From an uncultured Prevotellaceae bacterium (GTDB taxonomy: Bacteria; Bacteroidota; Bacteroidia; Bacteroidales; Bacteroidaceae), in the NCBI GenBank assembly GCA_902800435.1, contig CADCEQ010000033.1:1-38090 (forward strand): a DNA stretch of 38,090 nucleotides, given 5' to 3'. This document shows positions 15,836-38,090 of this stretch, piece after piece. The notes beneath the pieces were generated by a model. That model was not told the DNA's origin. It saw nothing but the letters and a program-made list of their open reading frames with translations, and searched no databases. Both the position numbers and the translations under genes were made by a program. Numbering within the stretch: the stretch's first letter is position 1; each line of letters opens with the position of its first letter.

Positions 15836-16729
15836 TTATTTCCCCAGAAACTCGCTGGGCGTGAGGCCGGTTATCCGCTTGAAGAGGCGGGTAAAGTGGT
15901 GGGGGAAATCAAATCCGAGCAGGCGCGAGGTCTCGCTGATGTTGTGACCGTTCATCAGCAGGCTCTTGGCCTGGTTGACGACGTAGTTGTGAATGTAGCC
16001 GATGGCCGTACCGCCTGTTGCCTTGTGGACGATGTCGCCGAAGTATCGGGGCGAATAGGCCAGTTCTGAGGCACAGTAGGCAACGGTGGGCAGTCCGTGA
16101 TACAGTTGCCGGTTCTCGCGGAAGTAGGTCTGCAGCAGGTTGTGAAAGCGCTTCAGCAGGTCGCTGCTGTCCTTCTCCTCTTCCGAGAGCTGCCTCAGGT
16201 AGATGCGGTTGCAGTATTCCAGTATCAGTCGAAGGTAGCCTAACAGAATAGTTCTCAACGATGGCGAGTCCTCACGCTCAGTCAGTTCCTGCCGCATCTG
16301 GACGAGCAGTTGGGTGATGTTGAGCCATTCGTCAGGCTCCATTTGCAGCGAGCCGTCGAAGAAGTACGAGAAGAACTGGTAGCGGTCAATCTGACGTTCC
16401 AGTTCTGAGCCGTGCAGCAGTTCGGGCGACCACATCAGCACCCATCCGCTCAGCGATATGCGCTCGCCGTTGTCCTCGAGTCCGCCAATCTGTCCTGGCT
16501 CTACAGCAATGATCGAGGCGTCGCTTACCTGCAGCGTCTTCATGCCGTAGGAGAGCTTATTGGGAAACTGGCGCTGAATGAACAGCCCATAGACGCCGTA
16601 GTTGTTCAGACTGTGGCGGAAGGGAGCCAGCTCATCGTAATGGACGATGCTTATCAGCGGGTGCAGCACGGGCGCATCCACAAACCTTGCATAGTCGTTG
16701 GGACTGTTCACTCTCAGTATATTTTTCAT
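15836..16729 (-). CDS. AraC-family transcriptional regulator
   Basis: The 297-residue protein has a cupin-like sensing part (residues 1-170) and a C-terminal AraC double helix-turn-helix (ELAYSPRYFGDIVHKATGG; ISETSRLLGFDFPHHFTRLF; TPSEFLGK end). It is divergent from the CMD-cupin gene. A 75 bp block before that gene is repeated before a flavodoxin gene 20 kb away, so this protein is the best candidate to bind it. Inducer unknown; redox or electrophile stress is a guess from the targets. Confidence 0.88.
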   Translation of the reverse strand: MKNILRVNSPNDYARFVDAPVLHPLISIVHYDELAPFRHSLNNYGVYGLFIQRQFPNKLSYGMKTLQVSDASIIAVEPGQIGGLEDNGERISLSGWVLMWSPELLHGSELERQIDRYQFFSYFFDGSLQMEPDEWLNITQLLVQMRQELTEREDSPSLRTILLGYLRLILEYCNRIYLRQLSEEEKDSSDLLKRFHNLLQTYFRENRQLYHGLPTVAYCASELAYSPRYFGDIVHKATGGTAIGYIHNYVVNQAKSLLMNGHNISETSRLLGFDFPHHFTRLFKRITGLTPSEFLGK

Positions 16730-16802: not shown

Positions 16803-16877
16803 TTTCGGCGAAATTGGTAAATAATCAGCCAATTTGTGTAACGCCTATATTAAATAATGTCCGTAACTTTGCAGCCG
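16803..16877 (+). promoter_or_regulatory. Shared regulatory promoter block, copy A
   Basis: This block aligns without gaps to 36818-36892, with about 60 of 75 bases identical. The best-kept parts are GAAATTGGTnAATAATCAGC, GTGTAACG and CGTAACTTTGCAGC, the last holding the -7 element TAACTTTG (16864-16871). No good TTTG -33 box is present, which fits an activator-dependent promoter. Confidence 0.7.
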
Positions 16878-18000: not shown

Positions 18001-18621
18001 TTACCTGATGAAGTTGGTCCGCAGCGGACTCTCCAACTGGGGATGGCCGTCCTTGCTGACGTTCAGCTTGCGAATCATCCAGGCCATGTTGCGCCCCAGC
18101 GTCCGCATGGTCTGCATGCCTTCTTCGTCCTGCGCCGCCTGTCCTGGAGTCTGTCCATAGACCATGTTCCAGTACTGCGAGCTGACCAGGGGCATGTTCA
18201 GAATCGTGAAGTACTTGTTCAGACGGTCGAAGGCTGCCGATGCACCACCCCTGCGACATACCACCACGCTGGCTCCTGGCTTGAAGCACAGGTCGCTGCC
18301 AAGCGAGTAGAACACGCGGTCGAGCAGGGCACAGAGCGAGCCGTTGGGGCCGCCGTAATAGACGGGCGAGCCGATGACCAGTCCGTCGATGCCCTCCTTC
18401 ACGGCCCGCATCACGCGGAAGTAGAGGTCGTCGCGGAACGTACACTTCCCCTCTCGTCCACACATGCCGCAGGCTATGCAGCCCTGCACGGCTTTCTTGC
18501 CGATGCTGATAATCTCAGTATCGATGCCCTCGCCGTTCAGCGTCTTTGCCACTTCGCTCAGCGCCGTAAACGTATTGCCGTTCTCCCGAGGGCTTCCGTT
18601 AATCAAAAGTACCTTTGCCAT
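18001..18621 (-). CDS. Flavodoxin-fold NAD(P)H-dependent oxidoreductase (iron-sulfur flavoprotein-like)
   Basis: The 206-residue protein begins with the flavin-binding loop LLINGSPRENGNTF and has the second loop SPVYYGGPNGSL. A Cys-rich stretch CIACGMCGREGKC lies near residues 48-60, as in multimeric flavodoxin (WrbA/Isf-like) proteins. It likely binds FMN and moves electrons to quinones or iron-sulfur sites in the cytoplasm. It faces the CMD-cupin gene tail to tail with a 26 bp gap. Confidence 0.85.
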   Translation of the reverse strand: MAKVLLINGSPRENGNTFTALSEVAKTLNGEGIDTEIISIGKKAVQGCIACGMCGREGKCTFRDDLYFRVMRAVKEGIDGLVIGSPVYYGGPNGSLCALLDRVFYSLGSDLCFKPGASVVVCRRGGASAAFDRLNKYFTILNMPLVSSQYWNMVYGQTPGQAAQDEEGMQTMRTLGRNMAWMIRKLNVSKDGHPQLESPLRTNFIR

Positions 18622-18659
18622 ATTCGTTAATTAAACTACGCAAGCTCTGCTTGCTCTAT

Positions 18660-18792
18660 GTAGACAGGGAGTTCAAGGAGTTCAAGGAGTTCAGGACAAT
18701 ACCCAATTCCCTTATCTCCTCGCATCTATTGGGATTCGGAGCAAAAAGACATATGTCTTGAACTCCTTGAACTCCCTGAACTCCTTGTCTCC
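18660..18792 (-). repeat. Inverted-arm repeat element R1 (GGAGTTC family)
   Basis: The left arm has three GGAGTTC units and the right arm three GAACTCC units, with a core containing GTATTGTCC (as its complement). Read on the minus strand it aligns with R3 (20317-20506) along its length. It starts directly after the thioredoxin stop codon. A small hairpin GCAAGC/GCTTGC (18640-18654) lies just outside. Confidence 0.8.
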
Positions 18793-19305
18793 TTACTCAT
18801 CCTCTCCTTGAACCACTTGCGGCGTCCAGTTCTTGAAGAAGCGCAGCACCTTCTCCTGGTTGTAGCCCTGTCCCTCCTCCAGGAAACTGGAATCCTGAAT
18901 GTGAATGACCTTCCCATCGCCGTCGAGAATCACAAAAACGGGGAAGCCGAAGCGGCCGGCATTGTTCAGGCGCTTCATCAGGGCCTTCCCCTGTTCCACC
19001 TTGTCGGCTCCCTGCGACTGGCGGGGATTGTAGTTCGTGTGGATATACTCAAAGTTATCGGCAATGACCTTGCTGATGGCCGTATCGTTGGCGATGAAGT
19101 CGGCAAACCTCAGGCACCAGGGGCACCAGTTGCCGCCAACCTGACAGACGACGAACTTGCCCTGCGACTTCGCTTTCACAATGGCCTTGTCAATCTGCTC
19201 AATGGGATTGACGTCCTCGTTATAGACCTTCTTCAGTCCATTCTGTGCCTTCGTGCCAACAGTTATCCAGCTGGCCAGAAGCGTTAGTATCAAAATCTTT
19301 CTCAT
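18793..19305 (-). CDS. Secreted thioredoxin-like protein
   Basis: The 170-residue protein has a signal peptide (residues 1-20, ending KAQ) and a thioredoxin fold with the redox pair in GGNWCPWCLRF and a cis-Pro region GFPVFVILDGDG. The acidic C terminus (GEDE) ends where repeat R1 begins. Such proteins act in the periplasm in disulfide exchange; the partner is unknown. The region before its start codon is entirely repeat R2, which supplies AAGGAG two bases before ATG. Confidence 0.85.
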   Translation of the reverse strand: MRKILILTLLASWITVGTKAQNGLKKVYNEDVNPIEQIDKAIVKAKSQGKFVVCQVGGNWCPWCLRFADFIANDTAISKVIADNFEYIHTNYNPRQSQGADKVEQGKALMKRLNNAGRFGFPVFVILDGDGKVIHIQDSSFLEEGQGYNQEKVLRFFKNWTPQVVQGEDE

Positions 19306-19383
19306 AACTCCTTACTCCTTACTCCTTGAACTCCTTGCGCTCGACCTTGGTCGCTCTGCTTGCAGAGAACTCCTTGTCTCCTT
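19306..19383 (-). repeat. Partial repeat element R2 (GGAGTTC family)
   Basis: Read on the minus strand this matches the left part of R3: GGAGACAAGGAGTTC, a small hairpin (CTCTGC/GCAGAG), then CGACCAAGGTCG and AAGGAGTTC units. The core and second arm of R3 are missing. It is translated as the last ~22 residues of the hydrolase gene and forms the leader of the thioredoxin gene. Confidence 0.75.
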
Positions 19384-20187
19384 ATTTCCTGCAATCCGCT
19401 TGATGTGGTCCTTCAGAATCTTGTAGGCGGGCTGCGGCATGTCCCCGTGGTCGTAGCCCTGCATCTCGTAGAGCGTCACGTCCTTGTGGCCCGCCAGCTT
19501 CAGCATGCGCCAGAAGTAGGCCTGCTCCTCGTAGCGGCCCAGCAGCTCCATCTCCCTGTCGCCCGATATGATGACGATGGGCGGCGCGTCGGCTCGTACG
19601 TAAGTGAGCGGGGCATACTGGTCGATGGTAGCCTGCAGCGGCGGTATGCCCTGCTGCTTGCGTATATTATAATGTGTGATGCACTGTCCGCTGAAGGGCA
19701 CGAGTGCTGCCAGCGAGTCGGCATCGACGCCGTATTTGGCGAGCCAGCGCTTGTCGAGCCCGATGAGGTCGAGCAGATAGCCTCCGGCCGAGTGTCCTGC
19801 CACGAATATCTTGCGCTTGCTGCCGCCGTATTTCCCGATGTTGTTGTAGGTCCAGGCTACAGCCGCCGCAGCGTCGTCGAGAATGTCGTCAATCTTGGCC
19901 TTCGGCAGCAGGCGGTAGTTGGCCGCCACCACCACGAGTCCGCTGTTCTTCAGCTGCGGGTCGATGTGCTTGTTTCCGCCCTCGATGCCGCCGCCGTGAA
20001 ACCAGACCACCACTGGAGCGTCCTTCCGGTCGGTGGGGTAGTAGACGTCGAGCTTGCAGCGCTCCTTGGCATAGGCGTCGTCCGACGTCGTGTAGGGAAT
20101 GTCGTTCTCCTGCTGGTACTGGGCGTGTGCAAAAGTCGTACAGAGCAGCATCACGATAACGGCCCAGAAAGTCTGTTTCATCTTCAT
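19312..20187 (-). CDS. Secreted alpha/beta hydrolase (esterase) with repeat-encoded tail
   Basis: A signal peptide follows the start at 20187 (MKMKQTFWAVIVMLLCTTFAHA). The alpha/beta-hydrolase motifs are FHGGGIEGG (oxyanion hole), GHSAGG (nucleophile Ser) and GYDHGD (His), as in esterase/lipase families with an HGGG motif. The fold ends near DHIKRIAGNK; the last ~22 residues (ETRSSLQAERPRSS...) are read from repeat R2 and have low complexity. The native stop was probably near that point. Alternative starts are 20181 and 20196. Substrate unknown; the neighbouring CE1 gene suggests a plant cell-wall ester. Confidence 0.82.
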   Translation of the reverse strand: MKMKQTFWAVIVMLLCTTFAHAQYQQENDIPYTTSDDAYAKERCKLDVYYPTDRKDAPVVVWFHGGGIEGGNKHIDPQLKNSGLVVVAANYRLLPKAKIDDILDDAAAAVAWTYNNIGKYGGSKRKIFVAGHSAGGYLLDLIGLDKRWLAKYGVDADSLAALVPFSGQCITHYNIRKQQGIPPLQATIDQYAPLTYVRADAPPIVIISGDREMELLGRYEEQAYFWRMLKLAGHKDVTLYEMQGYDHGDMPQPAYKILKDHIKRIAGNKETRSSLQAERPRSSARSSRSKE

Positions 20188-20225
20188 ATCGGTCATAAAA
20201 ACATAAAGAATTGTAATTATGGGTA

Positions 20226-20263
20226 CAAATATAGGGATATTTCGTGAATTATCGTTATTTTTG
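20226..20263. promoter_or_regulatory. Divergent -7 elements between hydrolase and CE1 genes
   Basis: TATATTTG on the minus strand (20233-20226) serves the hydrolase gene. TATTTTTG on the plus strand (20256-20263) serves the CE1 gene, about 255 bp before its start. Neither has a convincing -33 box. Confidence 0.45.
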
Positions 20264-20316
20264 CAAACAGTTTTAAGTGTTTTTAGAATTAAACCGTTCA
20301 AGTTGCGCATGTATGG

Positions 20317-20506
20317 GGAGACAAGGAGTTCAGGGAGTTCAAGGAGTTCTTCGCAAGCGAAGCGACCAAGGTCGAGCGCAAGACGTATGTCTGTCAACTC
20401 CGAATCCCACTCAACGCGAGGAGACAAGGGAATCAGGTATTGTCCTGAACTCCTTGAACTCCTTGAACTCCTTGAACTCCTTGAACTCCTTGAACTCCCT
20501 GTCTAC
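20317..20506 (+). repeat. Inverted-arm repeat element R3 (GGAGTTC family, expanded)
   Basis: The left arm is GGAGACAAGGAGTTC plus further GGAGTTC units. The centre holds palindromes CTTCGC/GCGAAG and CGACC/GGTCG, and a core with CGAATCCCA and GTATTGTCC. The right arm has six GAACTCC units at exact 9 bp spacing (20447-20498), then CTGTCTAC. R1 has only three such units. The element forms most of the leader of the CE1 gene, ending 12 bp before its start. Confidence 0.85.
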
Positions 20507-20518
20507 AAAAAGAAAGCA

Positions 20519-23939: not shown

Positions 23940-24107
23940 CCTGGGGAAAAGGAATGTGGGCTCAAATTTGAGCTCACATGTCTCAGCGGGACGGGACTTG
24001 GACAAGCCAAGCGGGCTGGGCCCGAGCGCTTTTGTTACACGATTTATTAAATAATGTGTAAAAACCGCGTAAAAACGCTGAATTCTTGCTGGAAATGAGT
24101 ATATTTG
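23940..24107 (+). repeat. Island repeat C1 with the first hsdM promoter
   Basis: This begins CCTGGGGAAAAGGAATGTGG and includes the near-palindrome TGTGGGCTCAAATTTGAGCTCACA, then GGACAAGCCAAGCGGGCTGG. It ends with the -7 element TATATTTG (24100-24107). The same block, with one short insertion, occurs at 35366-35566, and its first part at 31064-31112. Confidence 0.8.
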
Positions 24108-24169
24108 TAGGCTAAAAGTTTAAAGGTTTTGCTATATGCGATAACAAAAGTCACTCTTTTTATGGTTAT

Positions 24170-25627
24170 ATGAAGTACGAAAATACATTCAAAGCGATAG
24201 ACCAAATACTCTGGAAGGAGCAGGGCTGCGGCAGTGAGCTGGACTATCTGGAGCAGAAATCGTGGATGCTCTTCCTGAAATACCTCGACGACCTGGAAAC
24301 AGAACGCGAGGAAGAGGCCGAGCTTGACGGCAAAAACTACAGGCGACTGGTGTCAGGCTTCTACCGCTGGAGCCAGTGGGCAGCACCCAAGAAGCGCGAC
24401 CCTCAGACGGGCAAGATGGTGCTCGATACTGTCAACGCGATGAGCGGCGACGACCTGGTGGAGTTTGTCGACCAGAAGCTCTTCCCTTACCTCAAGGACT
24501 TCCAAAATACTGCGACTCAGACGGATAGCCTTGAATACAAGATAGGTGAAATCTTCGGCGAGCTGCACAACAAGATCCGCTCGGGCTTCAACATGCGCGA
24601 GATTATCAACATGATTGACGAGCTCCACTTCCAGAGCGCTGAGGACAAGCACGAGATGACGGTGCTCTACGAGAGCAACATCCAGCGCATGGGTAATGCA
24701 GGCCGTAATGGTGGCGAGTATTACACGCCGCGCCCCTTGATTCGCAGCATCATCCGTGTGGTTGACCCGAAGATAGGCGAGACGGTCTACGACCCTGCCT
24801 GTGGTTCGGCTGGTTTCCTCTGCGAGGCTTTCCTCTACATGAAGGAGAAGATCAAGAGCGTGAAAGACCATGAGACCTTGCAGCGAGACACCTTCTACGG
24901 CAAGGAGAAGAAAGGGCTGCCCTATATCATCGCCACGATGAACATGATATTTCACGGCGTATCGGCACCCAACATTACGCACGGCAACACGCTGGCGATG
25001 AACCTGAGCCAGATTCAGGAGAGCGACCGCAAGAACGTCATCCTGGCCAATCCGCCCTTCGGTGGCAATGAGCGAGGCGAGGTGCTGCAGAACTTCGAGA
25101 TTCGCACGTCGGAGACGGCCTATATGTTCATGCAGCACTTCATCAAGATGCTGAAGGCTGGCGGTCGGGCGGGTATTGTCATCAAGAACACCTTCCTGAG
25201 CAATGGCGATGCCAGCGCCATCCGCAAGATGCTCTTGGAGAACTGCAATCTCCATACGATTCTCGATCTGCCTTCGGGCGTGTTCACAGGTGCCGGCGTG
25301 AAGACGGTTGTGCTCTTCTTCACTAAGGGCGAGCCGACGCAGAAGATTTGGTACTATCAGGTAGACAAGCACTTCACGAAGACGCAGCCGCTGACTGAGG
25401 CTGATATGGAGGAGTTCCTCAGTTTGCAGAAGACGCAGGCAGAGAGCGAACACTCGTGGACGCTCGATGTGAGCACCCTCGACGACAGTTGCGACCTCAG
25501 CGTAAAGAATCCCAACAAGGTAGAGGCGGTTGACGAGCGCACACCCAGCGAGATTGCAGAGACCATCCTTGCCCTTGGGCAGGAGAATCAGACGCTTATT
25601 GACGAAATCATGGAGATGGTGAAATGA
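24170..25627 (+). CDS. hsdM: Type I restriction-modification system, methyltransferase subunit M
   Basis: The 485-residue protein has an N-terminal HsdM helical domain (residues 1-140, EQKSWMLFLKYLDDLE) and an N6-adenine methyltransferase domain: YDPACGSAGFL binds AdoMet and ANPPFGG (near 293) is the catalytic NPPF. HsdM with HsdS methylates the host target site to protect it. It heads an operon, overlapping the next gene by 4 bp (ATGA). A damaged copy of its ends is found at 35567-35650. Confidence 0.93.
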   Translation: MKYENTFKAIDQILWKEQGCGSELDYLEQKSWMLFLKYLDDLETEREEEAELDGKNYRRLVSGFYRWSQWAAPKKRDPQTGKMVLDTVNAMSGDDLVEFVDQKLFPYLKDFQNTATQTDSLEYKIGEIFGELHNKIRSGFNMREIINMIDELHFQSAEDKHEMTVLYESNIQRMGNAGRNGGEYYTPRPLIRSIIRVVDPKIGETVYDPACGSAGFLCEAFLYMKEKIKSVKDHETLQRDTFYGKEKKGLPYIIATMNMIFHGVSAPNITHGNTLAMNLSQIQESDRKNVILANPPFGGNERGEVLQNFEIRTSETAYMFMQHFIKMLKAGGRAGIVIKNTFLSNGDASAIRKMLLENCNLHTILDLPSGVFTGAGVKTVVLFFTKGEPTQKIWYYQVDKHFTKTQPLTEADMEEFLSLQKTQAESEHSWTLDVSTLDDSCDLSVKNPNKVEAVDERTPSEIAETILALGQENQTLIDEIMEMVK

Positions 25628-26706
25628 AAGAAGAGAATAACGAGATTGTCTCCGCTGCGGAGACAATCTCTGCCGATTATGAGGAAATACTGCAACGAGC
25701 CGTTGCAGTTATTGAGAATGCTCGTACCAGCGTGGCAAGACACTTGGCTACCACAGCCAGCAATACCTATTGGGAGATAGGTAAACTGCTCCATGAGAAG
25801 AAACTGGAGAGTAAGCATGGTAGTGAAGTTGTTAAGAGGCTTTCTTCCGACTTGAAAGAGCGATATCCCAAGATGGGTATGTCCCCACGTAATCTGTGGT
25901 ACATGAAGACATTTTATGAGCGATATAATGGCTGTGATTTAAAACTGCAACGCTCCGTTGCACTTTTGCCATGGTCGCATAACACTCTGATACTCAGTAA
26001 GGATTTGAATGATTCTGCCACTTTGTATTATGCTCAAGAGAGCGTTGCTAAAGGATGGAACCGCGATCTTCTACTTAATGCATTGAAGCTGAAAATGCAT
26101 GAGACACATGCTCTGGCTTCAACGGATAACAACTTCTCTTCTACACTTCCTGCCACGCAAGCTCAATATGCCAACGAGGTATTTCGTAGTTCATATAATT
26201 TGGGGTTCCTTGGCGTAACAGAGCCAATCCTCGAATTGGAGTTAGAACGCCGACTAGTAGAGAAGATCAAGTTGTTCCTACTCGAACTTGGCAAAGGCTT
26301 CACTTTTATTGGTAACCAGCACGTCTTGGAATACAATGGCAAGGAATATCGCGTAGATTTACTTTTTTTCCATAGGAAGTTGCGTAGTCTGGTGGCTATC
26401 GATTTGAAGATTGGTGAGTATAAGCCAGAGTATGCAGGCAAGATGAATACTTACTTGTCTATTCTCGATCGCATAGAGAAATCTGATGACGAGAACCGTT
26501 CTATTGGCATTATACTATGTGCTGAGAAAGATAACGTTGAAGTGGCGTTGTCGCTCGAAGACATGGGTAAACCTATAGGAGTTGCTGACTATCAGCTGAT
26601 TATTCCAAAGGAAGAACTGCAGAAGACGATATCTGCGGAAATACACTCTTTCGAACTGGAGCAAGCTGTAAAAGAACAACAGAAAAAGAAGGAGGAAGAG
26701 GCATGA
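25624..26706 (+). CDS. DUF1016/YhcG-like PDDEXK nuclease in a type I operon
   Basis: Residues about 20-170 match the DUF1016 N-terminal domain (WEIGKLLHEKK, GWNRDLLL). The C-terminal half looks like a PD-(D/E)XK nuclease: LELGKGFTFIG, then YRVDLLFFHRKLRSLVAIDLK, with Asp in RVDLLFF and the D-x-K of IDLK. The family is widespread in bacteria and often sits near restriction systems; its role is not settled. ATGA overlaps on both sides join it to hsdM and hsdS, so it is made with them. Confidence 0.85.
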   Translation: MKEENNEIVSAAETISADYEEILQRAVAVIENARTSVARHLATTASNTYWEIGKLLHEKKLESKHGSEVVKRLSSDLKERYPKMGMSPRNLWYMKTFYERYNGCDLKLQRSVALLPWSHNTLILSKDLNDSATLYYAQESVAKGWNRDLLLNALKLKMHETHALASTDNNFSSTLPATQAQYANEVFRSSYNLGFLGVTEPILELELERRLVEKIKLFLLELGKGFTFIGNQHVLEYNGKEYRVDLLFFHRKLRSLVAIDLKIGEYKPEYAGKMNTYLSILDRIEKSDDENRSIGIILCAEKDNVEVALSLEDMGKPIGVADYQLIIPKEELQKTISAEIHSFELEQAVKEQQKKKEEEA

Positions 26707-27881
26707 AAGAAGGGTGGGAATATAAGAAGATTAAAGATATTGGATCAGTAATAGGCGGAACTACGCCCAATACAAACATTGCGGAGTATTGGGATGGAAA
26801 TTTATGTTGGATTTCACCTGCAGAACTAGACGGCAGTCACTATCTTTATGATTCAAGGAAGAAGATAACCGAGGCTGCTGTTAAAGCAAAAAGCTTAAGG
26901 TTACTACCAGAGGGAACTGTCATTTTATCTTCAAGGGCGCCAATCGGTAAGGTTGTCATCAATAAAGTTCCGACATACTGTAATCAAGGCTTCAAATGCG
27001 TTGTATGTGACAAAGAAATATATAACGAATATCTATATTGGTGGTTTTGGGGAAAGACAGAGTACTTAAATTCCTTGGGAACTGGAGCTACATTCAAAGA
27101 AATCTCGAAAAAGGTGGTTGAAGAAATAACAATCCCTGTTCCTCCTCTTTCCGAGCAGCAATCCATTGTTGATTATCTTGACTCTGCTTTTGCTAAGATA
27201 GATGCGATGAAGGCTAATGCAGAAAAAGCCCTGGGTGAAGCCAAAGCCCTCTTCCAAGCATCACTCAAAGAAATGCTTGAACCAAAAGAAGGGTGGGAAG
27301 AGAAGACGCTTAAAGAGTTAGGTCAGACTCAAACAGGAACCACTCCATCAAAAAGTGATAAGGATAATTATGGTGATTATATACCATTCATTAGACCATC
27401 TGAAATAGATTTTGATGGTTCTGGTAGAATCGAATATAACAGTGCTTTAAAATTAAGTAAAAAGGGGGCAGATAATGGTCGTGTTTTTGATGCTCACTCT
27501 ATTTATATGGTGTGCATAGGCGCAACGATTGGTAAGGTTGGATATGGTGAACGAGCAATATCATGTAATCAACAGATTAATATTTTTTCACCAAACAGCT
27601 CAGTTAATTATAAGTTTGCTTATTATGCCATGAAAAATGATGGCTTTCAGCAAAAAGTAATAAAAGAGGGAACTAGCTCACAGGCAACATTACCAATTAT
27701 CAACAAAGGGAAATGGGAAAAGTTATGTATATCATATCCGCCTCTCCCCGAGCAGCAATCCATCGTCGACACTCTCGACTCTCTCAAATCCAAGGTTGAC
27801 CGCCTTCAAGCGAACTACGAGAAGATTTCTCAGGAGTGCGATGCATTGAAACAAGCCATATTACGACAAGTATTTGAATAA
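26703..27881 (+). CDS. hsdS: Type I restriction-modification system, specificity subunit S
   Basis: The 392-residue protein has two target recognition domains, each ending in the conserved PPL(S/P)EQQSIVD helix region (residues about 145-165 and 350-365). Two halves start alike (KEGWEYKKIKDIG; EGWEEKTLKELG), so both half-sites are specified. It fixes the DNA target for HsdM and HsdR. Base composition is more AT-rich than hsdM, as is usual for exchanged recognition domains. Confidence 0.92.
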   Translation: MKEGWEYKKIKDIGSVIGGTTPNTNIAEYWDGNLCWISPAELDGSHYLYDSRKKITEAAVKAKSLRLLPEGTVILSSRAPIGKVVINKVPTYCNQGFKCVVCDKEIYNEYLYWWFWGKTEYLNSLGTGATFKEISKKVVEEITIPVPPLSEQQSIVDYLDSAFAKIDAMKANAEKALGEAKALFQASLKEMLEPKEGWEEKTLKELGQTQTGTTPSKSDKDNYGDYIPFIRPSEIDFDGSGRIEYNSALKLSKKGADNGRVFDAHSIYMVCIGATIGKVGYGERAISCNQQINIFSPNSSVNYKFAYYAMKNDGFQQKVIKEGTSSQATLPIINKGKWEKLCISYPPLPEQQSIVDTLDSLKSKVDRLQANYEKISQECDALKQAILRQVFE

Positions 27882-27885
27882 AGAA

Positions 27886-28152
27886 TCAGACGTAATGACC
27901 TCTCAACGAAAAGACATACACATATATGCGCCCGCTGCTGATGGAGTAAACCATGCGGTGCTCATCGGTGATACGGCGGCTCCACTTGCCCTGAAGGTTT
28001 CCTTTCAGGGGTTCAGGCTTGCCCTTGCCCGTAAACGGATGCTGCTCTATGTCTTTCAGCAGTTCGGTAATGCGCTTTATGATTTTCACATTACCCGTCT
28101 GCTTCCAGTAGTCACGGTCTTTTTGGGCTTTCTTCAGCAGGACTACTTCCAT
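27886..28152 (-). CDS. yoeB: YoeB-family toxin
   Basis: The 88-residue protein matches YoeB closely: KPEPLKGNLQGKWSRRITDE followed by HRMVY, and a C-terminal Arg-Gly-His-Tyr. YoeB is a ribosome-dependent mRNA interferase of the RelE superfamily. The conserved Glu, Arg and C-terminal His-Tyr are present. It overlaps the antitoxin gene by 10 bp, and lies antisense within the type I operon between hsdS and hsdR, starting 5 bp beyond the hsdS stop. Confidence 0.9.
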   Translation of the reverse strand: MEVVLLKKAQKDRDYWKQTGNVKIIKRITELLKDIEQHPFTGKGKPEPLKGNLQGKWSRRITDEHRMVYSISSGRIYVYVFSLRGHYV

Positions 28153-28382
28153 AGGTCATCTATGGCAATGGGTTGGAAATTACCTTCGGCGATGTCTTTC
28201 TCGCCCTGGCGCACTATGTCCTCCAGTTCGGCCATCGACATCACTTCAGCATCTTTTGCCTGCTTCTGCAAAGCAATACGTTTGAGCGAGCGAACGGCTT
28301 TTTTCATCAGACCCTCATCGCCCGATATGGTTTGGAGAGCTCCGAAGAGTTCTGCATTAAGTTGCATCTGTACTGCTGTCAT
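28143..28382 (-). CDS. Antitoxin partner of YoeB
   Basis: A 79-residue protein directly upstream of, and overlapping, the toxin gene. It is helical and charged, ending in a short acidic tail (EGNFQPIAIDDLWK) of the kind that wraps a RelE-type toxin. The N terminus lacks a clear YefM/Phd DNA-binding sequence, so the antitoxin family is not named. A good promoter precedes it. Confidence 0.75.
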   Translation of the reverse strand: MTAVQMQLNAELFGALQTISGDEGLMKKAVRSLKRIALQKQAKDAEVMSMAELEDIVRQGEKDIAEGNFQPIAIDDLWK

Positions 28383-28410
28383 ATCTGATTCTATAAAATG
28401 ATTACCGCTG

Positions 28411-28441
28411 CAAAATTAAGCATAAAAAACGAAACAACAAA
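28411..28441 (-). promoter_or_regulatory. Promoter of the toxin-antitoxin pair
   Basis: On the minus strand TTTG (28441-28438), 19 bp, TAATTTTG (28418-28411), followed by the antitoxin start at 28382. Confidence 0.6.
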
Positions 28442-28461
28442 ATAAATACCCATAAAACTAT

Positions 28462-30912
28462 ATGAACGAAGCGCAGACACGACTGAACAAGATTGACCCC
28501 AAGCTGAGGGATGCCGGCTGGGGAATAGTTCCAGGGAGTAAGATTCTGGTGGAGCAGAGTGCATATATTGCGCCTGGCCGCCTCACGGCTTCTGGCAACA
28601 AGAATCCGAAGAAGGCTGACTACATACTGGAATACAAGGGGCAGAAACTGGCCGTGATTGAGGCTAAGAGCGACGAGAAGGACGTGTCTGAAGGCGTGGG
28701 ACAGGCCAAGCTCTATGCCGATGCGCTGAAGATTCGCTATACCTATAGCACCAATGGCGACGACATCTGGTTTATCGACATGGGTGTTAAGTCTGGTAAG
28801 GGAGAGTATATCATTCCCAGCAAGGAGCAGGATATTGACCATTTCCCCACGCCGCAGGACCTGTGGCAGATGACCTTCCCCGACGAGAACCCCTGGCGCG
28901 ACAAGTTCAATCTGTGTGCGCTGAATCGTAGTGGTGGCCGCCAGCCTCGCTACTATCAGGAAATAGCCATCAAGAACGTGCTGGAGGCTGTGGCGAAGCA
29001 GCACAACCGCATCTTGCTGACGATGGCAACTGGAACGGGAAAGACTTACACAGCCTTCCAGATATGCTGGAAACTGACGCAGACGAAATGGAACATCAGA
29101 GGTGTGGAGCGTGCGCCAAGAATCCTGTTTATTGCCGACAGGAACATTCTTGCCAATCAGGCCATCAACGACTTCGACCAGTTCCCCGAAGACGCCATGT
29201 GCCGCGTGACGCCGAAGGAGCTGCGAAAGAACAACTACAAGGTGCCGACAGCCCGCAACCTCTACTTCACCATCTTCCAGACCATGATGACGTCGCCCAA
29301 TGCACAGAAGGCAGAGGAGCAGGGCATCAGGCTGGCAGAAGGTGCGAGCGACCAGCCTTACTACATGCAGTACGAGCGCGACTTCTTCGACTTCATCATC
29401 ATCGACGAGTGCCATCGTGGCGGCGCCAACGACGAGAGCGAGTGGCGGAAGCTGATGGAATACTTCGACAGCGCCTATCAGCTCGGAATGACTGCTACGC
29501 CCCGAAGGAAGGACAATGCCAACACCTATGCCTACTTCGGCGACCCCGTATACACCTACTCGCTGAAACAAGGCATCGAGGACGGTTTTCTTGTCCCCTT
29601 CCGCGTTGAAATCTCTACGAGCAACATCGACGACTATCAGTTCCAAGAAGGCGACGTCGTGAAGAGCGGAGAGATTGACCCCGAGAAGATTTACTCGGAG
29701 TCGGACTTCTATAACGGCAGAATCCAGATCAAGGAGCGCGACGAGCACCGTGTGCAGGAACTGCTCGGCAAGATTGACCCCGACGAGAAGACCATCATAT
29801 TCTGTGCCACACAGAAGCACGCCATGATTGTGCGCGACATGGTGAACAAGCACAAGCGGCGCCCTGCCAGCAACTACTGCGAGCGAGTGACGGCCGACGA
29901 CGGCGAAGTGGGCGAAGCAACGCTGAGAGCCTTCCAGGACAACGAGAAGCTGTTGCCGACGATACTGACCACATCTTACAAGCTGAGCACTGGCGTTGAT
30001 GCCCGCAACGTGCGCAACATCGTATTGATGCGCCCTGTTCAGAACATCGTGGAGTTTAAGCAGATTATAGGTCGAGGCACGCGCCTGTTCGACAAGAAGT
30101 ATTACTTCACCATCTACGACTTTGTAGGAGCAAGCGACATGTTCAGAGACCCCGACTGGGACGGCGACCAGTATTGCCCCGTATGCGGCAACTGGCCTTG
30201 TACGTGCAGGAAGAGAAGATTTGATGATGAGGAAGAAGGGTTCCATGGGGCTATGGATGATTTTAATCCTCCCGTACCTGACCCCTGTCCTATTTGTGGC
30301 CATCTGCCCTGCACGTGCGAAGGTCCGCGGACAAATCTGATAGACATCAAGTTGTCTAACGGCAGAAGGCTGTCGCTCGAGACGACCTGGGAGCAGAAGA
30401 TATTCTTCGGCGACGAGTTCATCAGTCTTGACGACTATGTTGAGAAGCTCTTTGGCAGGATTCCCGAATTCTTCGCTGATGCCGATGACCTCAGAGCGAA
30501 ATGGGCTAACCCCGAAACACGCGAGCAGCTGCTGAGAACGCTTGACGAAGCAGGCTTTGCTGAGGACAAGCTGAACCTGCTGAAGAACATGCTGAAGATG
30601 CAGAAGTGCGACTTGCTCGACGTGCTTGAATACATCGCTTACAACTCGACGCCCATCGAGAGGGCCAAGCGAGTGGAACTTGTGAAGCAGCAGTATGTAG
30701 ACGCCCTGAACAAGGAGCAGCGAGAGTTCGACGACCTTATTCTGGAATACTATGCCAGCAACGGCTTCAAGGAGCTCGGCGCCGACAAGCTGAAGACCTT
30801 TATCAACATCAGGTTCAACTCCATGAGCGATGCCAAGCAAAGGCTGCAGATGTCAGTGGCCGACATACGGGCTCACTACTATGAGTTGCAGCGGAGGCTG
30901 TACTACGCGTAG
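28462..30912 (+). CDS. hsdR: Type I restriction-modification system, restriction/translocase subunit R
   Basis: The 816-residue protein has an N-terminal PD-(D/E)XK nuclease (KADYILEYKGQ, VIEAKSD), then superfamily 2 helicase motifs: ATGTGKT (near 190), DECHRGG (near 315), GMTATPRR and QIIGRGTRLF. After the helicase come two copies of a Cys motif, CPVCGNWPCTC (near 572) and CPICGHLPCTC (near 610), probably zinc binding. The C terminus is helical, for binding the methylase core. HsdR pulls DNA and cuts unmethylated foreign DNA. It is separated from hsdS by the toxin-antitoxin pair. Confidence 0.93.
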   Translation: MNEAQTRLNKIDPKLRDAGWGIVPGSKILVEQSAYIAPGRLTASGNKNPKKADYILEYKGQKLAVIEAKSDEKDVSEGVGQAKLYADALKIRYTYSTNGDDIWFIDMGVKSGKGEYIIPSKEQDIDHFPTPQDLWQMTFPDENPWRDKFNLCALNRSGGRQPRYYQEIAIKNVLEAVAKQHNRILLTMATGTGKTYTAFQICWKLTQTKWNIRGVERAPRILFIADRNILANQAINDFDQFPEDAMCRVTPKELRKNNYKVPTARNLYFTIFQTMMTSPNAQKAEEQGIRLAEGASDQPYYMQYERDFFDFIIIDECHRGGANDESEWRKLMEYFDSAYQLGMTATPRRKDNANTYAYFGDPVYTYSLKQGIEDGFLVPFRVEISTSNIDDYQFQEGDVVKSGEIDPEKIYSESDFYNGRIQIKERDEHRVQELLGKIDPDEKTIIFCATQKHAMIVRDMVNKHKRRPASNYCERVTADDGEVGEATLRAFQDNEKLLPTILTTSYKLSTGVDARNVRNIVLMRPVQNIVEFKQIIGRGTRLFDKKYYFTIYDFVGASDMFRDPDWDGDQYCPVCGNWPCTCRKRRFDDEEEGFHGAMDDFNPPVPDPCPICGHLPCTCEGPRTNLIDIKLSNGRRLSLETTWEQKIFFGDEFISLDDYVEKLFGRIPEFFADADDLRAKWANPETREQLLRTLDEAGFAEDKLNLLKNMLKMQKCDLLDVLEYIAYNSTPIERAKRVELVKQQYVDALNKEQREFDDLILEYYASNGFKELGADKLKTFINIRFNSMSDAKQRLQMSVADIRAHYYELQRRLYYA

Positions 30913-31063
30913 GAGAAACTACATATAACAGGGCGCCTTTTGTTACAAGATAAGTGCAAGATCTACGTAGCAAGCAGCCGTAGCAGCATCGGCCGGAGGT
31001 GCCAGGATGTAAAAGTATATCAGGGCAAAATTGCCCGCTCATCAATGACCATGATGGAAGCGG

Positions 31064-31112
31064 CGGCAATACCCTGGGGAAAAGGAATGTGGGCTCAAAT
31101 TTGAGCTCACAT
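31064..31112 (+). repeat. Island repeat C2 (short copy)
   Basis: GGCAATACCCTGGGGAAAAG and the near-palindrome through GAGCTCACAT match the start of C1 and C3, then the similarity ends. It lies after hsdR, next to the hsdR remnant of the second system. The rest of 30913-31063 shows no gene. Confidence 0.75.
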
Positions 31113-31284
31113 CGGAAAGGGTGAAGATGCACCTAAGTTTTGGGTATTAAGATTTGAAGTCTTTATCATCTCCTGAGCCAGCTTCAACAGCTCCTGGATG
31201 ACCTCTTCATTGGTCAACAACCCCTTGACATAGCGGTTAAGCAATCAAGGCCTGTTCGTATTCGTTTTCTGTATATCCGTTCAT
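31107..31284 (-). pseudogene. Remnant of a second hsdR (both ends, middle lost)
   Basis: From an ATG at 31284 the minus strand reads MNGYTENEYEQALIA and stops; this resembles the N terminus of another type of HsdR. In another frame directly after comes RYVKGLLTNEEVIQELLKLA followed by QEMIK, resembling the DUF3387-like C terminus of HsdR. About 50 codons remain of a gene usually near 1000. It stands where hsdR would be in the minus-strand system. The identity is inferred from short matches. Confidence 0.5.
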
Positions 31285-31296
31285 AGACTTTGTTAT

Positions 31297-32172
31297 TTAG
31301 TCTTCCTGTTCGTAATAATAAGAATAGTCGATGCCCTTCATAAACATCTCGCGATCATCAATCTTGTCGGTCAGAGCACCTTTTAGCAACGCTTTGATGG
31401 CACGGGCATCAGTTGTGCTCTGTCGCATGGCAGCTAAGTATTCCTTCTTATCGATCTTACTCCAATCCACGCACAGCTTCAGTTGTTTCTTGAATATCAA
31501 GTCAAGCCAGAGGCGCGTGCTTCGTCCGTTACCTTCCATAAACGGATGGGCTACGTTCATCTCTACGTATTTGTTGACAATCTCGTCGAATGTCGTTTCA
31601 GGCATCGCCTCGATAATACTCAGATTCTTCATCAAATACTCTGCACGGCAGAATAGTGTGCCATCCTTCCAGATGGTTTTTGTGCGAATCTGACCTGCAA
31701 AATCGTAAAGTCCACCAAACAGGTAAGCATGAATCTGCTGCAGGCATTCGATTGTCCCAGGCTCCAGCGAGTCAAGCAACCCACTCTCTACGAGGGTATA
31801 AGCCTTTTTCTTGCTCTGTCCGTCGATGGAGCTGTCGCTATATACGAACCAGTCGAGGAAGGCAGTGGCCTTCTGGTTGGGTATAGCCTTGGCAAGTGCT
31901 GTGATACCTTCGGCATCCATCATGTCTGTATTATACCGTTTACCATCAGCAGCACGCAGTTTCAGTTGGTTAGTGGCACTAACCAACTCATTCCCTTCTT
32001 TACGGAGTTTGGTCTTCAGATACTTCCAGTAGTTGCGGGTCTTGGCATAGTCGGGCTGTTCGTTAATGGCACCAATCACGTCGAGCACAGAGAAGAACCA
32101 CTTATTATCCTCCTCGCTCCACACCGCTCTCACCTCGTGGTCTTTATAGAATCGAATAGATACTTTGTCCAT
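31297..32172 (-). CDS. BRO-N/Fic fusion protein
   Basis: Residues 1-115 resemble BRO-N/phage antirepressor domains (WFFSVLDVIGAINEQPDYAK, RKEGNELVSATNQLKL). Residues about 120-291 are a Fic domain with the catalytic loop HPFMEGNGRSTRLW. Fic enzymes usually transfer AMP to target proteins; the loop is complete, with Glu in place of the usual Asp. It sits in the minus-strand type I cluster, 5 bp after the truncated hsdS. Target unknown. Confidence 0.85.
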   Translation of the reverse strand: MDKVSIRFYKDHEVRAVWSEEDNKWFFSVLDVIGAINEQPDYAKTRNYWKYLKTKLRKEGNELVSATNQLKLRAADGKRYNTDMMDAEGITALAKAIPNQKATAFLDWFVYSDSSIDGQSKKKAYTLVESGLLDSLEPGTIECLQQIHAYLFGGLYDFAGQIRTKTIWKDGTLFCRAEYLMKNLSIIEAMPETTFDEIVNKYVEMNVAHPFMEGNGRSTRLWLDLIFKKQLKLCVDWSKIDKKEYLAAMRQSTTDARAIKALLKGALTDKIDDREMFMKGIDYSYYYEQED

Positions 32173-32176
32173 AAGC

Positions 32177-32524
32177 CTACACTTTTATTTGACCAGACAT
32201 TAGTTTGGGAAGAAGGGTGTCGCGGAGAGTGGAGAGACGGGTTGATTCCTGTATGGCTTTATTCTCCAATTTCAAAAGATCTCCCACTAAATTGCAGAAC
32301 ATAGCGATTGCATCTTTGTCGTAGGCTAATCTTCTAGATAGGATAGCATTAGCATATATTCGCTGATGGCTATTTTTCTTTTCTGTATCATAAACATAAC
32401 GGCAATCTCCGGCAAAATCCTTTACCGAAAGCCAACAAATATCACCATTCCAGTATTCAACAACTGATGTTTTAGGTGTACCCCCACCTATTATTTGACA
32501 TATTTCAGGTATACGATAATTCAT
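32177..32524 (-). pseudogene. Internally deleted hsdS (second system)
   Basis: The frame of 115 residues starts like an HsdS target recognition domain (MNYRIPEICQIIGGGTPKTS, VEYWNGDICWLSVKDF) but after TEKK jumps to the conserved C-terminal helix (LENKAIQESTRLSTLRDTLL, PKLMSGQ). A normal HsdS has about 400 residues, so the central ~280 are missing. The reading frame is intact and may still make a short protein. A purine-rich AGGAGGAAGGAG precedes the start. Confidence 0.75.
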
Positions 32525-32613
32525 ACTCCTTCCTCCTTTCTGACAACTTCCCAATGACCTGTTTTGTCAGAGCCTATATGGCGTGTAAACTTATAATCTT
32601 TCCACTCTTCCAT
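32521..32613 (-). CDS. Possible 30-residue coupled peptide
   Basis: From an ATG at 32613, 3 bp after the RhuM stop, the frame reads MEEWKDYKFTRHIGSDKTGH and ends with a TGA overlapping the hsdS start (ATGA). Its position fits a gapless operon, but the length gives no family match. It might be the end of a longer lost gene. Confidence 0.35.
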   Translation of the reverse strand: MEEWKDYKFTRHIGSDKTGHWEVVRKEEGV

Positions 32614-32616
32614 ACT

Positions 32617-33639
32617 CTAATTCTGCTGGTTAATCAGATTTACAACGACTTTTACCATTACATCCTTTTCTTCTGTTCGGCTTTCAGCAATCATCAGTGT
32701 TAGGGCCACAAGGGTGTTGTCGGCTATGCGCTTGCTTCCGTCAGGACGATAGAGAATGCGGTTGTTGTTGAGGAACCAAAGGAACAGCGTGGCGGCAATA
32801 CGCTTGTTGCCGTCGCTGAACGAATGGTTCTTCGTGACGAGATAGAGCAGCATCGCTGCTTTCTCCTCCACACTGGGATAAAGTTCCTCACCTCCGAAGG
32901 TTTGATAGATTTGTCCTATCGAGCTCTTGAACGAGTCGTCCTTCTCGTTGCCAAAGAGGCTGCTACCTCCACGCTCGGCTTTGCCGCTTTGCTTAGCAAA
33001 GAATTTCTCACGTAGTCTGTCGATGGTCTCCAGCGCATTCTCATAGGTGGCATGGAAGGGTTCGTCTTTAGTGGTCTTGTTAATCGTCAGACGCTCGTAG
33101 TCGTAATTATCCAGTGTGTCCAGCGCATAGCTGTAGTCAGTAACTACCTCGAAGAGGGCAATGGTCTCATCGGTTGAGAGAAGAGGCTGGTTCTGGATGG
33201 TACGTCCGAGCATCCCTACAAGTTGGCGCAGTTCGCCAATCTGCTCTTTTCGGATGCGCTCGTTTACGGCATAGCCTTTGACGAGATAATCCTTTAAGAT
33301 TTTGTTCGCCCATTTCCTGAACTGTACCCCTCGACTGCTCTTAACACGATAACCGACGGATGTCACCATCTCCAGATTAAAATATTCCAATTCATGAGTC
33401 TGGGTTTTGCCCTCGATTGCACCGTGTTGGGTGGTATTCTCAAATTTTGCGACTACCACTTCATCAGCCAATTCTTCTTTTAACGCATTGTTTATATGTT
33501 TACTTATCGTCTTATAGTCTCTCCCAAACAATGTAGCAATCTGCTGACGAGTAAGCCATACCATATCTCCATCCAACTTTACCTCAAGCTGAATAGAATT
33601 ATTTTTATCCTTATATATTACAATTTTGTTCTCTTCCAT
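32617..33639 (-). CDS. RhuM-family protein with C-terminal Fic/Doc domain
   Basis: The 340-residue protein starts with the RhuM (virulence protein) region: WLTRQQIATLFGRDYKTISK and GYRVKSSRGVQFRKWAN. Its C terminus has a Doc-type loop HSFSDGNKRIAATLF. Doc proteins with NKR in place of NGR are kinases rather than AMP transferases, so it may phosphorylate its target. It begins 4 bp after the second hsdM stop, clearly in the same operon. RhuM genes are often found inside type I loci; the role there is not known. Confidence 0.87.
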   Translation of the reverse strand: MEENKIVIYKDKNNSIQLEVKLDGDMVWLTRQQIATLFGRDYKTISKHINNALKEELADEVVVAKFENTTQHGAIEGKTQTHELEYFNLEMVTSVGYRVKSSRGVQFRKWANKILKDYLVKGYAVNERIRKEQIGELRQLVGMLGRTIQNQPLLSTDETIALFEVVTDYSYALDTLDNYDYERLTINKTTKDEPFHATYENALETIDRLREKFFAKQSGKAERGGSSLFGNEKDDSFKSSIGQIYQTFGGEELYPSVEEKAAMLLYLVTKNHSFSDGNKRIAATLFLWFLNNNRILYRPDGSKRIADNTLVALTLMIAESRTEEKDVMVKVVVNLINQQN

Positions 33640-33643
33640 AACC

Positions 33644-35221: not shown

Positions 35222-35246
35222 ATTTACGTTTTAGTTCAGCTGCCTG

Positions 35247-35254
35247 CAAAGATA
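35247..35254 (-). promoter_or_regulatory. -7 element of the second hsdM promoter
   Basis: TATCTTTG on the minus strand, 25 bp before the start. A CAAA (TTTG on the minus strand) lies 23 bp upstream. Confidence 0.5.
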
Positions 35255-35365
35255 CACATTTCCCGCAAGAAACGATACAAAGGGTGGGGATTTTTTTGTT
35301 TTTACCTTATTTTTTCGCGCGAAGAGGGGTGAAACCGGAGGGCCAGGTGCTTGATTCTTCAACAA

Positions 35366-35566
35366 AGGGGCAATACCCTGGGGAAAAAGGATGTGGGCTC
35401 AAATTTGAGCTCACATGTCACAGCGGGACTCTTTTGTTATATGTTACAGACGGTTCTTGGACAAGCCAAGCGGGCTGGGCCCGAGCGCTTTTGTTACACG
35501 ATTTATTAAATAATGTGTAAAAACCACGTAAAAACGCTGAATTCTCGCTGGAAATGAGTATATTTG
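35366..35566 (+). repeat. Island repeat C3 with duplicated hsdM promoter
   Basis: This is a longer version of C1: the same near-palindrome, about 27 extra bases (near TCTTTTGTTATATGTTACAG), then the same run to TATATTTG at 35559-35566. Most bases match C1. Confidence 0.82.
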
Positions 35567-35650: not shown

Positions 35651-35692
35651 GACTATTTCAGAATCAAGTATTAATGAGAGGACGTGGTCGCT

Positions 35693-36817: not shown

Positions 36818-36892
36818 TTTCCGTGAAATTGGTTAATAATCAGCTAATATGTGTAACGGCAGGATAAGATAATGTTCGTAACTTTGCAGCGT
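36818..36892 (+). promoter_or_regulatory. Shared regulatory promoter block, copy B
   Basis: Ungapped match to 16803-16877, with -7 element TAACTTTG at 36879-36886 at the same offset (20015 bp). It precedes the flavodoxin gene. Confidence 0.7.
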
Positions 36893-36911: not shown

Positions 36912-38018
36912 ATGAAGCAGATTATTTTGTTTTTAGCAGCTTTGCTGCTTAGCTGCTGTTCATCTGACAGCGAGGCGATGGCAGAGGTTACTGCCACTAA
37001 TGCCGGCAAGACGCTGGTGGTGTACTACAGCTACACGGGCAACTGCCGCGAGATTGTGAACAAGCTGACAAGCCAGATTCAGGCCGACGTGCTGGAGATT
37101 CAGCCTGCCGAGAAGGGACTGAAGTACGAGGCTAACGGCTATGCGCTGGGTACTCAGCTGCTGAACGCCATCAAGGCTAATCCGAACGATGCCGGCAGCT
37201 ACCCGGCCATCGACCCTGTGACAACCTCGCTCAGCGGCTATCAGAACATCATCGTCGTCACGCCGCTGTGGTGGAGCCAGATGGCTGCCATCATGCAGAC
37301 TTACCTGTTCAACTACGGAGGGCAGATGGCTGGCAAGAATGTCGGCCTGATTGTGTCGAGTGCGAGCAGCAGCATCAGCGGTGTGGTGAGTGATGCCAAG
37401 CGGCTGCTGCCTGGCGTTACTTGGATGGGCGACGCGCTGTGGATCAATAACTCGAATCGCAGCAATACGACCTCGCTGATAGAGGGCTGGCTCAAGACGC
37501 AGAAATTCGCTGAACAACAAACTGCTATGGATAAAATGTATATCACCATCGACGGAAAGACGCAGAGCGTGACTCTCGCGGACAATGCTGCCACCAGGGC
37601 TCTGGTGGAAAAGCTGAAGCAGGCGCCTGTCACTGTGACGCTGAACAGCAGCGGCGGCTTCGAGATTTGGGGAGCACTGGGCTTCGCGCTGCCGACGAGC
37701 AACGAACAAACGACGGCTCAGGCCGGCGACGTCATCCTCTACAACGGCAGCAACATCTGCCTGTTCTACGGCTCTAACTCTTGGAGCTACACCCGGCTGG
37801 GAAAGATTGACGGCCTTTCGGAGAGCGAATTGCGCACTTTCCTGAAAGCCGGGGAAAGTAATATCGGCGTAGTCTTGTCGCTGGATAATTCCGCAGCCAT
37901 CAAGGAGGTGAAGAGCAATGGGTCGGAAGATGGAACCTATTACTCGGTGAATGGTCAGCGGGTACAGAACCCTACACATGGCATCTATTTGAAGAACCAT
38001 AAAAAAGTTATCCTATGA
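36912..38018 (+). CDS. Flavodoxin - cyclophilin-like lipoprotein with sorting-type tail
   Basis: The start at 36912 has GAAAGGA before it and gives a lipoprotein signal (LLLSCCSS). Residues about 35-200 are a flavodoxin fold (VVYYSYTGNCREI, VVTPLWWSQMAA). Residues about 205-330 resemble the cyclophilin-like domain often following such flavodoxins (MYITIDGKTQSVTL, GDVILYNGSNICLFYG). The last ~25 residues (YYSVNGQRVQNPTHGIYLKN) look like the C-terminal tail of secreted Prevotella proteins. It likely reduces a substrate outside the inner membrane. The GTG at 36891 is less likely. Its stop overlaps the next start (ATGA). Confidence 0.85.
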   Translation: MKQIILFLAALLLSCCSSDSEAMAEVTATNAGKTLVVYYSYTGNCREIVNKLTSQIQADVLEIQPAEKGLKYEANGYALGTQLLNAIKANPNDAGSYPAIDPVTTSLSGYQNIIVVTPLWWSQMAAIMQTYLFNYGGQMAGKNVGLIVSSASSSISGVVSDAKRLLPGVTWMGDALWINNSNRSNTTSLIEGWLKTQKFAEQQTAMDKMYITIDGKTQSVTLADNAATRALVEKLKQAPVTVTLNSSGGFEIWGALGFALPTSNEQTTAQAGDVILYNGSNICLFYGSNSWSYTRLGKIDGLSESELRTFLKAGESNIGVVLSLDNSAAIKEVKSNGSEDGTYYSVNGQRVQNPTHGIYLKNHKKVIL

Positions 38019-38090
38019 ACGTCAACAAACCTATCAGTCGAAGAAAAGCACTCAAGGTCATGGGCCTTGGAATGCTTGCAGCCTGCGTTC
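38015..38090 (+). CDS. Start of an exported protein (cut by window end)
   Basis: Only 25 codons are visible: SRRKALKVMGLGMLAAC has a twin-arginine pair, a hydrophobic run and a Cys, so a Tat-type or lipoprotein signal. It overlaps the flavodoxin stop by 4 bp. In similar loci an aldo-keto reductase or another flavodoxin follows; this cannot be checked here. Confidence 0.7.
   Translation, partial: MNVNKPISRRKALKVMGLGMLAACV

Follow-up and report, generated by a model that had tools for sequence, protein, structure and literature searches.

How do two genes that lie 20 kb apart and encode unlike proteins come to be preceded by nearly the same 75 bases? The question is raised by the window, i.e. 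the whole stretch of 38,090 nucleotides analysed here, in which one copy of the sequence (block 1) stands before a gene for a carboxymuconolactone decarboxylase-cupin protein (CMD-cupin) and the other (block 2) before a gene for a flavodoxin-like lipoprotein (Table 1). Judged by sequence comparison, the AraC-type protein encoded next to block 1 very probably has its binding site in this block, and we have considerable confidence that both blocks serve as operators and core promoters of one regulon under the control of this predicted regulator.

Two copies of one block

Blocks 1 and 2 align without gaps with 61 of 75 bases identical, in line with the approximately 60 given in an earlier note on this DNA, and the pair is also recovered among the repeats of the window as a 73-base family of 84% identity. 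No further 75-mer on either strand of the whole window matches block 1 at more than 35 of 75 positions. The word GAAATTGGTNAATAATCAGC, with up to three mismatches allowed, has two matches in the window, both exact and both at the blocks, where shuffled sequences lead one to expect 0.02. A position matrix search, which the earlier note had suggested, gave high scores in the window to the two blocks only: with a matrix trained on 30 outside sites, those of the window and of G001, the nearest genome, being excluded, block 1 scored 102.8 and block 2 69.4, compared to -41.1 for the runner-up in the window and -32.2 for the top of 60 simple shuffles (one strand). The conserved words that the note had picked out call for small corrections: the conserved stretch begins at TC (16805-16806 and 36820-36821), and of GTGTAACG it is mainly TGTAA that is kept among relatives, the later bases being variable.

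Table 1. Positions of the regulator gene, the two blocks with their predicted elements and the target genes in the window
Feature	Position	Strand	Basis
AraC/XylS-type regulator gene (297 aa), reading away from block 1	15836..16729	-	Pfam, predicted structure
Block 1, predicted operator and core promoter of the CMD-cupin gene	16803..16877	+	Alignment with block 2; position matrix
Upstream half-site TCGGCGAAATTGGTA, block 1	16805..16819	+	Direct-repeat element
Downstream half-site TCAGCCAATTTGTGTA, block 1, extending to the place of the -33 element	16825..16840	+	Repeat of the upstream half-site
-7 element TAACTTTG, block 1, 23 nt beyond the operator	16864..16871	+	Read from sequence
CMD-cupin gene (carboxymuconolactone decarboxylase + Cupin_2), 364 aa	16880..17974	+	Pfam; member of the operon in relatives
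Block 2, predicted operator and core promoter of the flavodoxin gene	36818..36892	+	Alignment with block 1; position matrix
Upstream half-site TCCGTGAAATTGGTT, block 2	36820..36834	+	Aligned with block 1
Downstream half-site TCAGCTAATATGTGTA, block 2	36840..36855	+	Aligned with block 1
-7 element TAACTTTG, block 2	36879..36886	+	Read from sequence
Flavodoxin_4 + Cyclophil_like2 lipoprotein gene, 368 aa	36912..38015	+	Pfam; orthologues in the operon of relatives
Start of the C8 gene, cut by the window end	38016..38090	+	Translation MNVNKPISRRKALKVMGLGMLAAC equals the C8 start of L054

Anatomy of the predicted operator and promoter

The conserved stretch contains a direct repeat made up of TCtGCGAAATTGGTA, the consensus of the upstream half-site in 34 non-redundant sites (the two of the window included), and TCAGCCAATTTGTGTA. 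In block 1 the half-sites are 20 bp apart in box A (TCnGC) and 21 bp apart in box B (GGTA/TGTA), and this 20/21-bp form is the one that the operator takes at target promoters in the clade of the window; the ancestral equivalent of the upstream half-site reads TCnGTRA...GGTA. The consensus of the 34 sites runs TCtGCGAAATTGGTAtATaATCAGCCAATtTGTGTAAt, a loosely conserved spacer and TAnnTTTGC. In this set the search word itself accounts for part of the conservation of the core, whereas TCtGC and the -7 box were free of such selection at the sites found by the exact core word (see below); the loci picked by the AraC protein provide an unbiased check on the columns. The distance from the end of the operator (TGTA) to the -7 box is 23 nt in 52 of 52 full-length sites with the exact core word; among the 18 sites of the genus sample, which were picked with that spacing, a single one (L113) has TTACTTTG in place of the -7 box.

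Promoters of Bacteroidetes have the consensus TAnnTTTG at -7 and TTTG at -33, 19-21 nt upstream. The -7 element TAnnTTTG is present in both blocks; the TTTG of the -33 element is absent at its expected place, where both read within TGTAACG, in agreement with the earlier remark that neither promoter has a good -33 box. A palindrome, AAATTGG-N11-CCAATTT, was dropped as a description of the operator because it is broken in block 2 and in several relatives, whereas the direct repeat recurs at the level of the order.

Predicted target genes and a probable split operon

A search for the exact core word AATTGGTNNATNATCAGCNNATNTRTGTA across one genome per species (84,980 species, contigs of at least 3 kb) gave 53 places, in assemblies titled Prevotella, Xylanibacter, Prevotellaceae, Bacteroidaceae, Muribaculaceae or Bacteroidales. 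The downstream gene is cut off at 10 of them. At the 43 where it is in view, the first gene encodes an Fe-alcohol dehydrogenase (Fe-ADH; 20 places), a position taken in the window by CMD-cupin, a flavodoxin/cyclophilin-like protein (14), an Amidohydro_2-ABM protein (7), another Flavodoxin_4 protein (1, L067) or a hexapeptide acyltransferase (1, L084), and genes for FMN reductase, alpha/beta hydrolase, CMD-cupin, the 4Fe-4S protein C8 and a DUF362 protein lie further downstream. With the full core word, all 43 visible genes fall within this set rather than among many unrelated genes. The genes at these loci were called by a mechanical longest-ORF rule (at least 90 aa), and the labels C8, C10, C11 and C29, coined from the same loci, were later given the Pfam assignments 4Fe-4S, hexapeptide acyltransferase, Flavodoxin_4 and DUF362; the C8 protein of L060, for example, carries 4Fe-4S domains. 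A 20-base word with three mismatches proved unspecific, matching 88 of 150 genus genomes, with a reversed control that also matched in many and with many of the inspected matches falling inside unrelated genes or in front of them; a match is informative only if it is to the block or to the longer word.

In four relatives (L081, L086, L087 and L097) the flavodoxin and CMD-cupin genes stand in a single run behind a single block, whereas in the window the AraC and CMD-cupin genes are found at 15.8-18.0 kb and the flavodoxin gene with C8 from 36.9 kb. Because relatives keep both genes in one operon, we read the arrangement in the window as an operon that has been split, each piece having its own block in front. 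G139 also has two blocks, one beside the AraC gene and the other before an Fe-ADH gene on a separate contig, and the orthologous flavodoxin gene in G001 (L001) is preceded by the same block. No Fe-ADH gene was found in the window by tblastn. The earlier note had proposed a small regulon of the AraC gene, CMD-cupin, the flavodoxin lipoprotein and the gene after it; the same operon and block beside the AraC orthologue in relatives bear this out, and these comparisons support a regulon that would be both larger and older than proposed. Its view of the two genes as unlike, with common ancestry by gene duplication unlikely, needs an amendment: they are partners of one operon, so that block 2 may be an old copy of block 1 carried along at the split.

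Such an origin could also mean that block 2 is only a leftover of the duplication, a promoter copied with the moved gene and now drifting, and that the two genes are no longer co-regulated. The single promoter shared by both genes in relatives, the lower matrix score of block 2 and the retention of block 2 in G001, which shows no AraC, are all consistent with this idea. We consider it improbable, however: the blocks differ at 5 of 36 operator positions, at 0 of 8 positions of the -7 box and at 7 of 23 positions of the spacer, so that the functional parts are better preserved than the spacer, small as these numbers are, and detached blocks recur before target genes in several genomes. Our preferred reading remains that of two pieces of one regulon. 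The operon would have been split in the lineage of the window, with CMD-cupin staying beside the AraC gene and the flavodoxin and C8 genes now lying 20 kb away, beyond a type I restriction/Fic island; both pieces would have kept a copy of the operator and promoter.

The island between the blocks (24170-36736) encodes HsdM, a YhcG-like nuclease, HsdS, HsdR, a second HsdM and three Fic-domain proteins. In G001 (L068), too, the flavodoxin block has a Fic gene and an HsdR-like gene directly upstream of it. Near-identical repeats (53 and 121 nt, 85-96%) surround the restriction genes at 23940-24110, 31073-31125 and 35377-35569, and HsdM sequence is repeated at 24231-24292 and 35566-35627; these repeats are possible traces of duplication or recombination. 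An FMN reductase gene at 18001-18621 is convergent to CMD-cupin and has no block before it; FMN reductases are members of the operon in relatives. The region 18648-20518 contains inverted repeats rich in GAACTCCTTGAACTCC and a pair of arms, at 18665-18765 and 20374-20474, that are 85% complementary.

The AraC-type regulator and its co-occurrence with the block

The gene divergent from block 1 had been described as AraC-type, which is confirmed by its Pfam HTH domains (HTH_18, 61.6 bits for a cut-off of 33.6; HTH_AraC, 37.7 bits for a cut-off of 26.6); the N-terminal domain received no Pfam assignment. The predicted model (mean pLDDT 88, pTM 0.61) has a beta-rich N-terminal domain and a double HTH. 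The best solved matches in Foldseek are AraC-type regulators, which superpose well only domain by domain: the DNA-binding domain aligns with those of the AraC family at a TM of 0.61-0.78 of target and the N-terminal part with the regulatory domain of RhaR at 0.66-0.70 of target, while whole-chain superpositions are poor (TM about 0.3), the domain arrangement being different. AraC, RhaR, ToxT, Rns and CsvR have, like the window regulator, two C-terminal HTH motifs.

An AraC orthologue of 78-90% identity lies divergent beside 36 of the 53 places with the exact core word; three are cut too near to tell and 14 are detached. The position of block 1 relative to the AraC gene and to the -7 box is the same in relatives. 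The closest AraC sequences (P0001-P0007) are 98-99% identical to that of the window. In the genus sample of 150 genomes, with the block at up to three mismatches and AraC at 83% identity or more, 15 genomes have both (including G035, whose AraC gene has an interrupted frame and was counted as present), one has only the block (G001), one has only AraC (G033) and 133 have neither (Fisher 1.6e-18), counts that are inflated by adjacency and shared ancestry. Some sites of this sample are the same places as exact-core-word loci, and the two sets are not additive. G001 has no AraC match at E<=1e-40 in an assembly that is 85% complete, and G033, with an AraC of 87% identity, has no block within three mismatches.

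The detached blocks provide a better test, because co-occurrence mostly reflects one linked locus in related genomes. An AraC orthologue is present in 8 of the 14 assemblies with detached blocks, in two within 4 kb and in one only as a 193-residue fragment, and was not seen in the other six, assemblies of unstated completeness; against the AraC base rate of 16/150, the binomial probability is 2.8e-5 for 8/14, or 7.7e-4 for 6/12. In L079, a 62-residue piece of AraC lies about 3 kb from the detached block. When loci were picked by AraC alone (at least 85% identity, genus sample), 11 of 15, a number that excludes two further places without a locus, had the block upstream of the AraC gene, 62-204 bp from its start, and three of the other four genomes keep it before targets elsewhere, about 4-5 kb off in G098 and G010 and on another contig in G060, the fourth being G033.

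A putative older operator in distant relatives

The block has also been found in G251 (L173), a genome of another family than G001, together with an AraC of 88% identity; it scores 77.0 and precedes a lipoprotein gene that resembles, by appearance, the alpha/beta hydrolase of the operon. Horizontal transfer of this cassette is possible on the strength of these similarities. Orthologues of 70% and 67% identity are accompanied by degraded forms of the block (47.9 and 23.4), and none of the 61 upstream regions of AraC relatives of 31-53% identity has a block of the window type. A direct repeat of TCnGTRA at exactly 21 bp is present in 18 of these 61 regions (0.00 in 50 shuffles), and among the other spacings from 10 to 40 it occurs only at 20 and 28, once each; the word was chosen after inspection of these loci, and the enrichment is therefore not a blind one. 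The exact repeat is missing from the other 43, including most of the group of 40-46% identity. Given the repeat in distant relatives, the operator looks old and the form of the window clade drifted.

Of 198 order-level genomes, 24 contain the older operator with up to two mismatches, at 45 places in total (reversed control, 1), and an AraC relative is found in 22 of these 24 compared to 34 of the 198 overall. An AraC gene stands next to 16 of the places; of the 29 others, 27 lie in genomes that have AraC, and the 29 non-adjacent places are the part that is independent of the repeat count above. The gene behind the operator, examined at 30 of the 45 places, belongs to the same enzyme families in 22: aldo/keto reductase (6), Fe-ADH (1), flavodoxin (4), CMD and/or cupin (4), ABM (2) and alpha/beta hydrolase (5, of which two match below the Pfam cut-off). 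The eight outside these six classes encode 4Fe-4S proteins (2), hexapeptide acyltransferases (2), a metallo-beta-lactamase fold, DUF3737, DUF6263 and a C25 peptidase (1 each); the peptidase place is in G347, a genome without AraC, as is G155, which has a weak hydrolase match. The strict -7 word follows 23 nt after the operator in 17 of 31 sites, 24 nt in one, 22 nt in one and is lacking in 12.

Site and recognition helix differ in parallel between the clades. In the close clade, residue 228, which is the third of the first recognition helix, is R (17 sequences) or H (2); the 62 distant sequences have N (45), G (12) or S (5) there, and among them the 21-bp repeat accompanies N in 17 of 45, G in 0 of 12 and S in 1 of 5. 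Cys173 in the linker helix and Cys219 in the first HTH are present in 19 of 19 close sequences and in 49 and 50 of the 62 distant ones, a conservation that would fit thiol sensing.

The block might instead be the operator of another regulator, a second AraC-type protein or a global factor, of which the divergent AraC gene is merely a target, and a second AraC-like gene, 21-23% identical, does lie near the site and operon in L054, L061, L071 and L103. We find this very improbable, as it is the orthologous AraC gene that is the constant neighbour (36/53), the site changes together with the clade of that gene, and sites track its family in the 198 order-level genomes. That the blocks resemble each other merely as strong core promoters or copies of a mobile repeat is scarcely credible, for despite the -7 word in both and the other kinds of repeat common in the window, among 17 window stretches aligned on TAnnTTTGC no pair other than block 1/block 2 has more than 42 of 75 bases in common (all-pair mean 28), conservation is highest upstream of the spacer, and the block precedes one gene set at the 43 places with a visible downstream gene.

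A predicted activator of detoxification genes

If the blocks are operators of one AraC-controlled regulon, as we favour, a dimer of the protein would occupy both half-sites, which face the same side of the DNA at a distance of about two helical turns, with the downstream half-site at the -33 place and 23 nt before TAnnTTTG. Because this half-site occupies the -33 place, bound AraC could replace the missing -33 contact and recruit RNA polymerase. This would be class II activation, the way in which AraC acts at araI. From the fold of the predicted model, the direct repeat and the fixed spacing to the -7 box, we infer that the regulator is a class II activator. Class II activators of the AraC/XylS family likewise have a direct-repeat operator adjoining the core promoter; they differ from the window system in operator sequence, targets and probable signal.

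The targets, oxidoreductases and hydrolases, suggest a detoxification pathway for reactive carbonyls or electrophiles, such as aldehydes and quinones, which might also provide the inducer. The regulator appears to turn on detoxification genes in rumen Prevotella and, with the older site, in many related bacteria. It is most likely an activator of an electrophile-detoxification regulon that works like YqhC of E. coli and comes from another subfamily. More speculatively, and less probably than not, it could belong to an undescribed, Bacteroidales-wide family of electrophile-sensing AraC proteins with a Cys173/Cys219 thiol switch, a shifting set of carbonyl/quinone detoxification enzymes, an operator that drifted with the change of N228 to R or H, and a regulator-operator-enzyme cassette that spreads between families.

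An activator operator is an ordinary kind of element. Here, the regulator, the operator at base resolution, the promoter geometry and the targets are predicted jointly over much of an order, and this wide reach and tight geometry make the prediction easily testable. If true, it would be a clear case of regulon pieces moving apart yet retaining their operator, and of operator drift parallel to one recognition-helix residue. To our knowledge, the targets of few regulators other than those of sugar use are known in Prevotella and related bacteria, and the literature searched, consisting of titles and the beginnings of abstracts and covering few subscription journals, contained no description of this regulon or of the family of its regulator.

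MhqR, YodB and NemR are repressors of the MarR/TetR type that control quinone/electrophile regulons, whose mix of genes (hydrolase, flavin reductase, reductase) we take to be similar to the one found here; unlike them, the present regulator is AraC-type and, by its geometry, a predicted activator. The iron-starvation flavodoxin FldA of other Bacteroidetes was set aside as a counterpart, being part of a different gene pair, fldA-DUF2023 (PMC10434189).

In the YqhC-yqhD/dkgA system of E. coli, an AraC-type gene is divergent from an operon whose first gene encodes an Fe-alcohol dehydrogenase (YqhD), much as at those loci of the relatives where Fe-ADH comes first (20 of 43 sites); in the window that place is taken by CMD-cupin. 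YqhD and the Prevotella Fe-ADH share 33% identity over 356 columns. DkgA is a methylglyoxal reductase of the aldo/keto class, a class also found behind the older operator. YqhC is the activator of yqhD and dkgA and is important for tolerance of glutaraldehyde (PMC8262776). The window regulator was rejected as an orthologue of YqhC: their similarity is confined to the C-terminal HTH (28% over 80 residues), and the AraC_N domain (PF06719), which scores 138.6 bits in YqhC, was not detected at E<=0.1 in the window regulator or its L064 orthologue. The set of genes behind the block is also wider than that of YqhC.
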